Assembly (NCBI GenBank): GCA_011523505.1
Contig: WTGP01000026.1
Location: 62,001-126,000 of the forward strand
DNA: 64,000 nt
Direction: 5' to 3'
DNA from: Gammaproteobacteria bacterium
GTDB lineage: Bacteria; Pseudomonadota; Gammaproteobacteria; Steroidobacterales; Foliamicaceae
The notes beneath the pieces are model-generated. The model saw nothing but the letters and a program-made list of their open reading frames with translations. It made no database searches and was not told the DNA's origin. The translations under genes and the position numbers were made by a program. Positions 810 to 21,242 of this stretch are shown one piece after another; within the stretch, counting starts at the first letter, position 1; each line of letters starts with the position of its first letter.

Positions 810-2063
810 ATGCACTGGCTTGTTCTGGGGTTGCTGGCCATTTTGGGAGTGCCGCTCTTCGCGATCATCGCGGGCGGAGCGATGCTCGGCTACCTGAGCG
901 CAGACATTCCCCTGGCCTCCATCGCCATCGAAATACTGGGCGTGGCGACGCTGCCTGCGCTGGTCGCCATTCCCCTGTTCTGCTTCGCCGGATACGTGCT
1001 GGCGGAGAGCCCGGCGCCGAAGCTGCTGGTGCGCCTGAGCGAAGCCCTGGTGGGGTGGATGCCCGGGGGCCTGGCGGTTTTCGCGTTGGCCGTCTGCGCG
1101 CTGTTCACGGCATTCACGGGCGCGTCCGGCATCACCATCATCGCGATGGGCGCCTTGCTCTATCCGGCGCTGAAACAGGCGCGCTACCCGGAGGGATTTT
1201 CCCTAGGGCTGGTCACCACCGGCGGCAGCCTGGGGCTGCTGTTCGCGCCTTCCCTGCCTTTGATTCTCTACGGCGTCGTCTCCGAAACCCGCATCGACTC
1301 GCTGTTCAGGGCCGGCGTGCTGCCCGGCCTGGCCATGATCGTTCTCCTTGCCGCGTACTGCCTGTGGGTCAACCGCAGCGAACGCCGGCCGCTTTCCAGC
1401 TTCGATTGGCGCGAGGTCGCCGGCGCGGTCAGGGCCGCCGGCTGGGAGCTGCCGTTGCCGGTTATCGTGCTGGGCGGCATCTATTCCGGCTACTTCGCGA
1501 TTTCCGAGGCGGCGGCGGTCACGGCGCTCTACGTCGTGATCGTGGAAGTGTTCATCCGCCGCGCCATTCCGCTTTCGCGCCTGCCGCTGATCATGCGCGA
1601 TTCGATGACGCTGGTGGGCGGGATACTGCTGATCCTGGCCGTATCGCTGGCGTCCACCAACCTGATGATCGACGCCGAGGTGCCCCAGCGGCTGCTGGCG
1701 GTGGTGGGCGAGGTCGTGAGCGGACCCGTGACCTTCATGCTGGCCTTGCTGGTGTTCCTGCTGATCCTGGGCGCTTTCCTGGACATCTTCTCCGCCATCG
1801 TGCTGGTCGTGCCGCTGATCCTCCCGGTCGCGGCCCAGTTCGGCGTGCACCCGGTCCACCTGGGCATCATTTTCCTGGCGACCATGCAGCTGGGTTACCT
1901 TACGCCCCCCGTGGGTCTTAACCTGTTCATTGCGAGCTACCGGTTCGAGCAGCCGATCGTTCGCGTTTACCTGGCCAGCCTGCCGTTTCTGCTGGTGCTC
2001 ATGGCAGCGGTGCTGCTGATCGCATTCTGGCCCTCGCTTTCCCTGTGGATGATCGGAACATGA
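810..2063 (+). CDS. TRAP transporter large permease subunit (DctM family)
   Basis: 417 aa polytopic protein with DctM-like motifs (GASGITIIAMGALLYPAL, LGYLTPPVGLNLF). Confidence 0.92.
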   Translation: MHWLVLGLLAILGVPLFAIIAGGAMLGYLSADIPLASIAIEILGVATLPALVAIPLFCFAGYVLAESPAPKLLVRLSEALVGWMPGGLAVFALAVCALFTAFTGASGITIIAMGALLYPALKQARYPEGFSLGLVTTGGSLGLLFAPSLPLILYGVVSETRIDSLFRAGVLPGLAMIVLLAAYCLWVNRSERRPLSSFDWREVAGAVRAAGWELPLPVIVLGGIYSGYFAISEAAAVTALYVVIVEVFIRRAIPLSRLPLIMRDSMTLVGGILLILAVSLASTNLMIDAEVPQRLLAVVGEVVSGPVTFMLALLVFLLILGAFLDIFSAIVLVVPLILPVAAQFGVHPVHLGIIFLATMQLGYLTPPVGLNLFIASYRFEQPIVRVYLASLPFLLVLMAAVLLIAFWPSLSLWMIGT

Positions 2064-3160
2064 TTCGTAAAACAACCCTTGCATTGTGCGCCCCTGCGGT
2101 GCTCGCGTTCGCCGCCGGAGGGGCGCACGCGGACCTTGATTTGCGTGAAATACGCCTGCCGCCGGGCTTCGAGATCGAGGAGTACGTGAGCGGCTTGCGA
2201 AACGCCCGCGGGCTCGCGATCGGCGAGAACGGCACGCTGTTCGTCGGCACCCGCAACGTCGGTAAGGTGTACGCGGTGCGTAATCCGGGCGGACCCGGCC
2301 AGGAGACCATCGAACTGGCCTCGCGCCTGCTCCTGCCCAACGGCGTGGCGGTGCGCGGTTCCTCGCTGTTCGTGGCGGAAGTTCACCGCATTCTGGAATA
2401 CGAGAACATCGAACAGCGGCTCGGGGAGGACATCAGCCCCACGGTGTTTCATGACGGCCTTCCCACCGCCCGGCATCACGGCTGGCGGGCCATGGGCTTT
2501 GCGCCCGACGGCTGGCTGTACGTGGCGGTGGGCGCTCCCTGCAACGTTTGCGACAGCTATGCGACGATCGAGCGTATTCCGGCGCAAGGCGGCGAACGCG
2601 AGGTCTATGCGCGGGGCGTGCGCAACAGCGTGGGTCTGGCCTGGCACCCGGAAACCGGCGAGCTCTGGTTCACGGAAAACGGACGGGACCTGATGGGCGA
2701 CGACATTCCACCGTGCGAGCTGAACCATGCCCCGCGGCCCGGCATGCACTTCGGTTTCCCTTTCTGTCATGGAACGGACATCCCCGAACCTGACGCAAAA
2801 TGGGCGGCGCTGGGCGAATGCGCTTCGGCCACGCCGCCGGCACAGGAACTGGGGCCTCATACCGCGCCGGTGGGCCTCACTTTCTACACCGGCGACGCCT
2901 TTCCCGCCGGATACAAGGGGCGGCTGTTCATCGCCGAGCACGGCAGCTGGAACCGCAGCGAGAAGATCGGCTACCGGGTGATGATGCTGGAGCTCGAGGG
3001 CAATGAAGTCGTGAGCTACGAGCCGTTCGCGGAGGGCTGGCTGCGCGGCGAGGAGACGCTCGGACGGCCGGCTTACGTCATCGAGGATCGCGACGGCAAT
3101 CTGCTGATCAGCGACGACCACCGCGGCGTCGTATACCGCGTCCGCTACACCGGCGCCTGA
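2060..3160 (+). CDS. Secreted PQQ-dependent sugar (glucose/sorbosone) dehydrogenase-like beta-propeller
   Basis: ATG overlaps dctM stop (ATGA); signal peptide; LPPGFEIEEYVSGLRNARGLAIGENGTLFVGTR...GLAWHPETGELWFTENGRD...FIAEHGSWNRS motifs. Confidence 0.85.
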   Translation: MIRKTTLALCAPAVLAFAAGGAHADLDLREIRLPPGFEIEEYVSGLRNARGLAIGENGTLFVGTRNVGKVYAVRNPGGPGQETIELASRLLLPNGVAVRGSSLFVAEVHRILEYENIEQRLGEDISPTVFHDGLPTARHHGWRAMGFAPDGWLYVAVGAPCNVCDSYATIERIPAQGGEREVYARGVRNSVGLAWHPETGELWFTENGRDLMGDDIPPCELNHAPRPGMHFGFPFCHGTDIPEPDAKWAALGECASATPPAQELGPHTAPVGLTFYTGDAFPAGYKGRLFIAEHGSWNRSEKIGYRVMMLELEGNEVVSYEPFAEGWLRGEETLGRPAYVIEDRDGNLLISDDHRGVVYRVRYTGA

Positions 3161-18091: not shown

Positions 18092-18180
18092 AAAATAAAC
18101 CGAAACCGATACATCGCCGGAAGCATGGGCTTATCGGCTGCCGGGTGGGCCGGCACGTCGGTGGATCGGGTAGAACTTGC

Positions 18181-19641
18181 CTAATTCAAAAGTCGGGTTG
18201 ATTTCGAGCGGATCTCAAAACCACCGTTGAGCGCGGGTTCTACGGAGTAGTGCGCAACGACGGTATCGTTTTCGAGCACGTAAAGCTGTGCCCTTTCCGT
18301 AGCTACGTATAGCGCGTCCTTGTGTTGCAGGATATCGGTGATGACTTCACTGATCGGGTAGATGCGCACATCGCCGGTTTCCATTTCGTATCGAAGCAAG
18401 CCACCGCTATAGTCTGCTCCTTCCGGGTGGCCGGTAAGCCCTATCCAGACCCGGTCGTTCTCGATCAGGATCGCCGACGTGGACCAATCCGCGATTTCCG
18501 GCAGCCTTATGAGTTGGTAGCTGCGACGCTCAATATCGAAGTAACCGAGCGATCCCACTCCGGTCAAACCTTCGCCATCGTAGAAGCTCTTGCCGAACCA
18601 CAGGCGATTTCGGTGGACTGCGAATGCCTCGATCGATTCCAGGATCGTGAAACTGTCGATGTTTCTGGCGTAAGCTGGCTGTGTTTCTGCAAAACGGGAT
18701 CGGTACAGTCCCAGATCTTGCGGTGTGGACTGAGATAGCGGGAACGCTCGATAGGATTCCCCGTCCTGAACGACGATACCGGACAAACGTTCGTAGTGAC
18801 CGCGAGCGTTGTAGTTGTCCAGTGGAAAATCAAATGTCCAAAGCGGAGGTGACGAGGCCGCCTGCACGAAACAACTCGGGTCGGTCTTTGGCGTTATCGA
18901 CGAATCCAGCAGACTCCCTGCGCGGATCGGATTCAGTCTCAAGGTCCGGCATTCAGCTATTGGGCCTGGAATGGTCGCGATAGCCGTCTTGCGCTCGTGT
19001 CCGAAAACCAGTTCCGGCCCTCCCGGAGAGAAACGCGCCACAATGGCCTCTATCCAATCGCGACTGTTCCATAGTCGTTTTGTTGCAAAGTAAACCGCAT
19101 TACCGATTTGCAGCAAGGCACTTTCGCCCAACGGCTCGAATTTCACCTGACCCAATGCTCTCCTGGCATCGGCATCAAAAAACTGCTTGATTGACGTGCA
19201 GTAAATTCCATACATGTCGTCGCAATTCGTTAGAACAACGGAATCTGCATGAATTGCCTCCACCCTGGTAAAGCTAATGTCCCCCTGCTGACGAAGCACG
19301 ATCGGAGGGAAGGCCACCTTCTCCCATCGTGAACCTGGCTCGTCTTTGTCCATGATCGAAAGCACGATCAAATCGTCGTCTCGGTGCAGTTCTGTGGGCC
19401 ACCATTCGGGACGCGGCTCTTTTCGGTGGATCTCGATCGCAATTGCCCGTCCACCGTCCTCCGAAACGGCGGCAAGCTGTTCTACGGTACGCGTATCCGG
19501 GGATTCTTCCGTTTCGGGACGTTGGACTTCAGGCGCCGAAGCCTCCACGGCAGGCAACAAGCCGATCAGGAACGCCAGGACTCCCGTATAAAACGCACGT
19601 ACCGCAGATTTGGTCAAAAATACTGCTGTGCTTCCAAACAT
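18181..19641 (-). CDS. Hypothetical exported protein, probably beta-propeller-like
   Basis: N-terminal hydrophobic segment (start [29 protein letters not shown]); repeated short beta-rich units; a longer ORF to 19800 is open. Confidence 0.55.
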
Positions 19642-19858
19642 GCCAAGAGTATAGGCACAACGAATGCAGCCGTGCTTATGGGAGAGAAAGCACAAGCCGC
19701 AGTCCTTCATCAACTCTGCGAAGGACGCTTTGCGCAACACGACCCGCGCGTTTCTGCAGAAACTTGCGGTCCAGCGTGACGATTTGCGAGAGGTTGACAA
19801 CGGACCTTTATGTAATAATTGGGGCCATAAGTACCTTTATGAAGAGGAAAAGGTATTA

Positions 19859-20698
19859 ATGGACCTATTGAACGATCTGATCAAGGACTCTTTTGGGGCC
19901 GCCGCGGCCCGCGAGTTGTGCCGCAGTAGCGGGCTTTTTGAACCGGGCCGGCTGTACAGGCGTATCGAAATCAGCGAGACGCTGCGCAAGGAATTTGTCC
20001 GGCATGGCGGGGATTCCGGCACCACGAACGCGGCCGTGGCTACCGTGCTGAAGAAGTGGCTCCTGACGCGCGCCAGCCCCTTTCGCAGAGAAATGCGGGG
20101 GCGCTATCGGTTCCTGGGTCTTCAGAGAGAGAACAGGGAGTACCCGGGTGCGGGCGTTGGGGGGTCCCCTGTGCGCGATGCTCCCATGGATTACGTGCCG
20201 ACTCCCGAACGTGAAATCGGCGCAGGCCCCTGTGAAGTGTACGCCTGGTGCATGCCCGGGTATGGGGCTACCCGAGACGGCCGCTGGCCGATAAGAATCG
20301 GCAGGGCCGGAACCGAAGGATTCAAGGGCCAGTTGCGCGACTTTCACGAAAACCTTCCGGAACGGCCCCGCTACCTGCTGAGGCTGGGTTGCGCCGACGA
20401 TGCCGAAGCCCGCAGGCGGGAGTCGCTGCTGCATGCCTGGTTCACGGAACGTGGGCAGCAGCGTGAGGAGGCGTCGGGAGATGCATGGTTCCTGACCAAT
20501 CCCGGCCAGATCGACGAAGCGATACAACAACTGATGGAGGGGGAGATGCATGGCCGCGGCATAACTCTTGAGGAAATGGACAAGCTATTTGCGGAAGCGA
20601 CCAAGGACGTTCCGGACGAGGAATGGGCAAACCTGCCCGACGACCTGATCGACCGGCTTGACGAGTATCTGTACGGCGTGGACCGCTACCGCCAATGA
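19859..20698 (+). CDS. GIY-YIG/T5orf172-like domain protein with antitoxin-like C-terminal tail
   Basis: 279 aa from ATG 19859 with purine-rich RBS; CEVYAWCMPGYG...WPIRIGRAG...LRDFHENL...ESLLHAWFTERG...DAWFLTN; ATGA overlap with PIN gene. Confidence 0.65.
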   Translation: MDLLNDLIKDSFGAAAARELCRSSGLFEPGRLYRRIEISETLRKEFVRHGGDSGTTNAAVATVLKKWLLTRASPFRREMRGRYRFLGLQRENREYPGAGVGGSPVRDAPMDYVPTPEREIGAGPCEVYAWCMPGYGATRDGRWPIRIGRAGTEGFKGQLRDFHENLPERPRYLLRLGCADDAEARRRESLLHAWFTERGQQREEASGDAWFLTNPGQIDEAIQQLMEGEMHGRGITLEEMDKLFAEATKDVPDEEWANLPDDLIDRLDEYLYGVDRYRQ

Positions 20699-21156
20699 AG
20701 ACCGTATTCGCTGACACGGCCTATTGGGTAGCCGTATTCCGGCCGCGCGATCAATGGCGCTCCGCGGCCCGGTTTGCGCTGCGGCAGTTGGGACCAGTCA
20801 ATATCGTAACCACCGACGAAGTCCTGACCGAGTTCCTTGCCAGTGCGTCCAGGGGAGGGCCAGAGGTTCGTCTGAGCGCCGTTCGCAGCGTGCGGGAGCT
20901 GCAGAACAATCCCAGAGTGCGAGTCATGCCGCAGTCCAGGGAGTCGTTTTGCAAGGCGCTGGACCGCTACGCGGCGCGTGCCGACAAGAGCTACAGTCTT
21001 CAGGATTGCGTGTCGATGAACGTCATGGAGGATCAGTCGATTACGGATATTCTCACCAGCGACCGCCATTTCGAACAGGAAGGATTTACCGTGCTCATGA
21101 ATCGGGCCAGCGCGCGTTCGAAGTCGGTTCAGGACGACTTCCCAAGGCCGGGATAA
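20695..21156 (+). CDS. PIN-domain protein (VapC-like ribonuclease)
   Basis: FADTAYW, TTDEVLTEFL, SLQDCVSMNVM, ILTSDRHF supply the acidic PIN residues; start overlaps upstream stop. Confidence 0.88.
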   Translation: MKTVFADTAYWVAVFRPRDQWRSAARFALRQLGPVNIVTTDEVLTEFLASASRGGPEVRLSAVRSVRELQNNPRVRVMPQSRESFCKALDRYAARADKSYSLQDCVSMNVMEDQSITDILTSDRHFEQEGFTVLMNRASARSKSVQDDFPRPG

Positions 21157-21242
21157 TCGCTCACCCGACGGCGAGGTGGCGGCTTCTCCGGGTAAGGAAT
21201 ACACTACACGCCACAAGTGTCCGGACCTTGGGAGATCCACAG

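Follow-up and report, generated by a model that had tools for sequence, protein, structure and literature searches.

The closest described relatives of the gene pair reported here are the VapBC toxin-antitoxin modules of type II, in which a small antitoxin of the RHH, AbrB, Phd or similar type, about 70-100 aa in length, is encoded in front of a PIN-domain toxin. Many partners of PIN proteins were listed by Makarova et al. in 2009 (RHH, AbrB, PHD, COG2442, COG2880/DUF104 and others), none of them a GIY-YIG protein (PMC2701414). In the PanA/NetFlax network toxins exchange antitoxin domains, one such domain being combined with many toxins, and a GIY-YIG antitoxin is not named in that study of swapped antitoxins (PMC10440598). 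The R.Hpy188I-like GIY-YIG enzymes are restriction enzymes encoded beside methyltransferases, with neither a tail nor a PIN neighbour. A GIY-YIG or T5orf172 antitoxin was not found among the titles and abstracts listed from the open-access library that was searched.

The window, by which is meant the whole stretch of 64,000 nucleotides that was analysed, holds on its forward strand two overlapping genes that share with VapBC the antitoxin-first operon, the PIN fold with all acidic residues and the C-terminal tail, but here the upstream protein has 279 aa and three parts. The exchange of antitoxin domains resembles that of PanA/NetFlax, with the difference that one tail is here combined with many scaffolds and one PIN family. 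As in the R.Hpy188I-like enzymes, a Lys is found for the Tyr in the YIG half-motif and, in one branch, the Arg is off its usual place (PMC2630997). Tail-less relatives of the T5orf172 (PF10544)/MUG113 (PF13455) type, L007 and L059, have the T5orf172-like domain and the Tyr, Gly, Glu and WF residues in common with gene 1 and appear, from our own reading of the sequences, to share its winged-helix-like N-terminal part, but they lack the tail and the PIN neighbour, and the helix-1 Arg has been lost only on the side of the window's genus. Pairs in which a MazE, DUF104, TacA1, DUF2281 or HicB-like protein ending in HDxYLYG accompanies a PIN protein have a related PIN and the same tail motif as here, but an unrelated N-terminal scaffold and a PIN at most 53% identical to gene 2.

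Taken on this comparative evidence, the pair is very probably a VapBC-like type II toxin-antitoxin module in which the antitoxin scaffold has been swapped for a winged-helix GIY-YIG protein. The PIN ribonuclease encoded by gene 2 would arrest growth, probably through cleavage of an RNA belonging to the translation machinery, and the C-terminal ~40 residues of gene 1 (..LPDDLIDRLDEYLYG) would bind the PIN protein and hold it inactive. In VapBC modules the active site of VapC is covered by the tail of VapB (PMC10127717), and by homology the tail of gene 1 should cover that of gene 2. The usual small DNA-binding part would be replaced by a winged helix, most likely binding the operon's own leader, and by a T5orf172-type GIY-YIG domain from a family that exists alone elsewhere, which most likely binds nucleic acid and sets the timing of PIN release and would not be a second nuclease here. 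Toxicity, neutralisation, autoregulation and a sensing or defence role of the pair are what we infer. The module thus appears VapBC-like in its working parts, and we could not find its antitoxin architecture described.

The gene pair, its site and its distribution

Gene 1, the predicted antitoxin of 279 aa with winged helix, T5orf172/GIY-YIG domain and PIN-binding tail, was delimited by ORF, orthologues and alignment at 19859..20698 on the + strand. Gene 2, the PIN-domain RNase and predicted toxin of 153 aa, follows on the same strand at 20695..21156, and the two overlap by ATGA. Conservation with relatives begins at the ATG at 19859, which was taken as the start of gene 1; a 344-aa in-frame extension was rejected, conservation being seen only from 19859 onward. 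The overlap and the length of the upstream protein had both been given in the earlier note on this DNA, and the ORF coordinates and the conserved start bear them out. The mean pairwise dN/dS within the genus (NG86) was 0.32 for gene 1 and 0.49 for gene 2. Within gene 1 it was lowest in the winged helix (0.18), followed by the GIY-YIG domain (0.30), the tail (0.44) and the linker (0.50). Both genes are under purifying selection, and since the pair in addition recurs at nine loci it is not due to chance.

The pair was found in five of the nine genomes of the gammaproteobacterial genus. When 85,462 species genomes were scanned, three more loci came to light, filed under Latescibacterota (L045), Acidobacteria (L046) and Binatota (L047); their identity to the window is 51-56% for gene 1 and 63-67% for gene 2, and a further locus (L062) belongs to the same phylum as L046. 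Outside the window, gene 1 at these nine loci, five congeneric and four others, is 51-91% identical, and at each of the nine the PIN gene comes immediately after it, with an ATGA overlap. The three non-gammaproteobacterial phyla rest on metagenome bins, in which possible misbinning affects the labels and not the sequence divergence. The distribution is, as judged from these sequences, horizontal and patchy. No relative of gene 1 was found in the viral contigs, phages and plasmids searched. The isolate labels of the metagenome-assembled genomes look, from their names, like host-associated or sponge surveys. A tRNA-Phe gene was seen ~190 bp upstream in the record from Binatota.

In the window the pair lies in a variable insert, delimited by blastn/tblastn at 18096..21196, between a gene for an Rrf2-family regulator, next to suf genes, and a class I aldolase gene. 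The insert is absent from four of the nine congeneric genomes, in which the flanking genes are adjacent (G002, G004, G007 and G008), and the same site is occupied in G001, G003, G005 and G006. Movement of the pair between locations within the genus was considered and rejected, as all five genomes have it at one site with variable flanking cargo. The insert also holds a 539-aa ORF on the minus strand (18181-19800) that is missing from the empty sites and has no Pfam match. An element of ~125 bp at 19674-19804 has relatives beside the module in G003 (upstream) and in G001 (downstream of the PIN gene); mobility mediated by this repeat was dropped as an explanation, the element being present in a single copy in the window's genome.

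Alignment of the five congeneric leaders showed a conserved leader or promoter region upstream of gene 1 (19800..19858, + strand), which is a candidate operator only. Within the genus, conservation reaches about 50 bp upstream of gene 1 and does not extend to the DNA beyond. Within this region a 7-bp inverted repeat, TACCTTT-n10-AAAGGTA, was found at 19832-19855 and is present in two of the five congeneric leaders, and in G003 it shows a matched change of TAC/GTA to TGC/GCA. A sigma-70 scan found no promoter on the + strand. In the search for an operator shared across phyla no leader motif exceeded shuffles, for which reason autoregulation is here only presumed.

The PIN protein and the C-terminal tail

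Gene 2 matches the Pfam PIN family PF01850 (E=5e-9), and its nearest solved relative is VapC20 (profile E=9e-6). Residues D7, E42 (with D41 and E46), D104 and D123 are invariant in the alignment of eight orthologues, in agreement with the earlier reading of a compact PIN protein with all acidic positions. In a tree of 34 PIN sequences the nine GIY-partnered PINs cluster with one another, a single unresolved sequence (L060) excepted, and sit inside a clade of many partner types. A single scaffold swap with subsequent horizontal spread would be the simplest account of this tree. The neighbourhood search across genomes that the earlier note had proposed found a GIY-YIG partner beside all PIN relatives at least 60% identical to gene 2, so that the outcome which would have spoken against that note, PIN homologues regularly lacking the GIY-YIG-like gene, did not arise; those at most 53% identical have other scaffolds with the same tail. 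Congeneric genomes (loci L039 and L041) also carry a second, distant PIN of 33% identity, the antitoxin of which is Phd-like by eye and ends in AIVYG.

The acidic antitoxin tail of gene 1 covers residues 236-279 (20564..20695, + strand), with the core WANLPDDLIDRLDEYLYG. It is common to PIN partners of unrelated folds and absent from the tail-less GIY-YIG relatives, and its ~40 residues are conserved among the orthologues in the alignment. PIN relatives found by their PIN sequence alone pair with small upstream antitoxins of unrelated folds, nearly all ending in ..HD/LDxYLYG; the motif [HL]Dx[YIH]L ends 11 of the 14 small upstream partners. Searched in the last 20 residues of 1771 distinct ORFs, taken from all loci collected up to that point, this motif was found in 26, all of them (26/26) PIN partners, and as it was written after the tails had been seen, a profile is the fairer test. 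When 1956 ORFs were searched with a tail profile trained only on the tails of PIN-found, non-GIY antitoxins, all GIY-YIG partners were recovered, at E-values between 2.5e-8 and 2e-3, and none of the unrelated ORFs fell below E=0.1.

Inversely, a profile of gene 1 found seven more proteins by the tail alone and with PIN information unused, six with a single tail and one with two (L060, the source of two matches), and a PIN gene directly follows each of the seven. The scaffolds among them are TacA1, DUF2281-like, RHH-like, and proteins of 303, 307 and 376 aa, the last with two tandem tails. Among the small partners, that of L018 is MazE according to Pfam, and the labels DUF104, RHH and Phd were given to others by eye. 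On cyanobacterial plasmids the tail matches adjoin PIN matches, with scaffolds that are HicB-like by eye. Tail-less GIY-YIG relatives have no adjacent PIN gene, neither in the congeneric L006 and L007 nor in L015, L059 and L063; a weak PIN match in L006 (E=5e-4) is a short minus-strand ORF and was taken as chance. By these sequence comparisons the tail of gene 1 is homologous to the tails of the small antitoxins of related PINs. The antitoxin-like character that had been read earlier from its acidity is upheld by the profile recovery and the PIN adjacency, that is, by comparative evidence.

Some of the tail carriers deserve description. In L060 (58-1188 and 1187-1604) a 376-aa protein not assigned to a family carries two tandem, predicted PIN-binding tails, and a PIN gene comes directly after it. 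The related 303- and 307-aa proteins of L068 (1495-2406) and L069 (1486-2409; minus strand) likewise bear this tail and precede PIN genes, and they have no Pfam or NCBIfam match; their type is, by prediction, another large non-canonical antitoxin scaffold. In L067 (1309-2521) two tail-bearing RHH-like/PIN pairs stand in tandem, and the second PIN is truncated.

The winged helix and the GIY-YIG domain

Gene 1 itself has no match in Pfam, NCBIfam, PADLOC, PHROG or the PDB sequences. In an AlphaFold2 model built from eight orthologues, residues 1-88 (19859..20122, + strand) show the winged-helix topology H-H-E-H-H-E-E at pLDDT 70-89, and the Foldseek matches of this part are weak and mostly to winged-helix DNA/RNA-binding domains. 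Together with the dN/dS of this part, the model predicts a winged-helix DNA-binding domain, so that the helical or winged-helix-like N-terminus of the earlier note holds as a prediction.

Residues 119-228 (20213..20542, + strand) make up a divergent T5orf172/MUG113 domain of the GIY-YIG superfamily, assigned through relatives by Pfam and by an alignment of 14 domains. Two orthologues exceed the Pfam gathering score of T5orf172 (cut-off 20), L045 with 24.8 bits and L046 with 22.8 bits, L005 has a match below the threshold, and the tail-less L006, L007 and L015 match with E-values of about 1e-7 to 1e-10. The model of the domain is of moderate confidence with a plausible order of elements. Foldseek searches of both models against the PDB gave no GIY-YIG match, leaving the fold unconfirmed, and a domain profile searched against PDB sequences gave chance-level matches only (Csm6, FAK). 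The central GIY-YIG/T5orf172-like domain claimed earlier is thus supported by its orthologues and relatives, but neither by a match of the window protein nor by Foldseek.

Y128, G148 and E188 are invariant across the 14 aligned GIY-YIG domains, as are W210 and F211, and the identity of the domain between phyla is 59-64%. The canonical helix-1 Arg is kept in the other phyla (RRR in L045-L047) and in the tail-less relatives, whereas all five congeneric proteins have Q or L in its place, with K/N and G/A in the registers beside it, as read by eye from the alignment. The congeneric triplets are K/G/Q or N/G/L, and the site in the window is K156/G157/Q158. In relatives of R.Hpy188I the helix-1 Arg can migrate (PMC2630997), and by analogy R160 may be a migrated Arg in gene 1. 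Loss of GIY-YIG catalytic activity is nevertheless likely in the window's genus, and since the canonical Arg is missing there, a part in binding or sensing appears more likely for the domain than that of a functional second nuclease.

The winged-helix-like part seemingly present in the tail-less L007 and L059 suggests that the tail was added onto a pre-existing winged-helix/GIY-YIG protein. In L007 (565-1233, minus strand, and 1441-2112, plus strand) the tail-less winged-helix GIY-YIG protein is a paralogue from G005, and it adjoins, on the other strand, a toxin-antitoxin pair that is HigBA-like by eye.

Possible functions of the pair

The earlier note proved largely right, and its proposal that a GIY-YIG fold had been recruited as antitoxin or sensor is strongly supported by the tail homology and the PIN co-occurrence as far as an antitoxin in place of VapB is concerned, the sensor part being a matter of inference. 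In a stronger form of the swapped-scaffold explanation, the main task of gene 1 would be to recognise, through the GIY-YIG domain, a specific nucleic acid that is foreign or damaged and then to release the PIN protein as an abortive-infection switch. Sensing scaffolds are suggested by the other large, non-canonical tail carriers (303, 307 and 376 aa; L068, L069 and L060), and the GIY-YIG core is under selection (dN/dS 0.30) though the canonical Arg is lost, but neither a trigger nor a phage linkage came out of the searches of viral contigs, phages and plasmids, and we regard this form as rather unlikely. Equally doubtful is the opposite view of an ordinary selfish or stabilising VapBC to which the large scaffold, a repressor only, adds nothing. 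It agrees with the horizontal, patchy distribution, the insertion at a variable site and the strongest constraint being on the winged helix (dN/dS 0.18), but the identity of the GIY-YIG domain between phyla is too high for dead weight.

Somewhat less doubtful, though still tentative, is a general idea in which the tail of ~40 residues, LPxDL..LDxYLYG, acts as a portable leash with which any protein acquiring it could restrain this PIN RNase. Large proteins, the winged-helix GIY-YIG protein and those of 303, 307 and 376 residues, would in this way have been made sensor-gated controllers of the toxin, and what the GIY-YIG protein senses would be nucleic acid of foreign origin or with damage. What the swapped-scaffold explanation implies is that an antitoxin can arise from a protein of a nuclease superfamily by gain of a short toxin-binding tail, and that this tail is defined as a module which scaffolds of many unrelated kinds have in common. 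If true, the tail would give a simple sequence rule for spotting unrecognised antitoxins of any size beside PIN genes, and a sensor role of large antitoxin scaffolds in toxin release would become testable.

The alternative offered in the earlier note, a defence effector made up of both nucleases, is improbable. In the form considered here, the GIY-YIG and PIN domains would both be active and would jointly attack invading nucleic acid, with the tail serving only as an interface for assembly. Both domains come from nuclease superfamilies, the helix-1 Arg and the invariant Tyr and Glu are kept in other phyla, GIY-YIG restriction enzymes consisting of a single component protect against phage (CMoRE, PMC12923530), and the pair is located in a variable insert. 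Against this, neither protein has a PADLOC match, neither defence neighbours nor a phage context was seen, the canonical Arg is replaced in this genus, and the same tail and PIN occur also with non-nuclease antitoxins. Less probable still is a housekeeping RNA-processing unit with a PIN gene that is no toxin, for although some PIN proteins are not toxins, the tail is of antitoxin type and the pair is patchy across phyla, with a clean empty site in four of the nine congeneric genomes.
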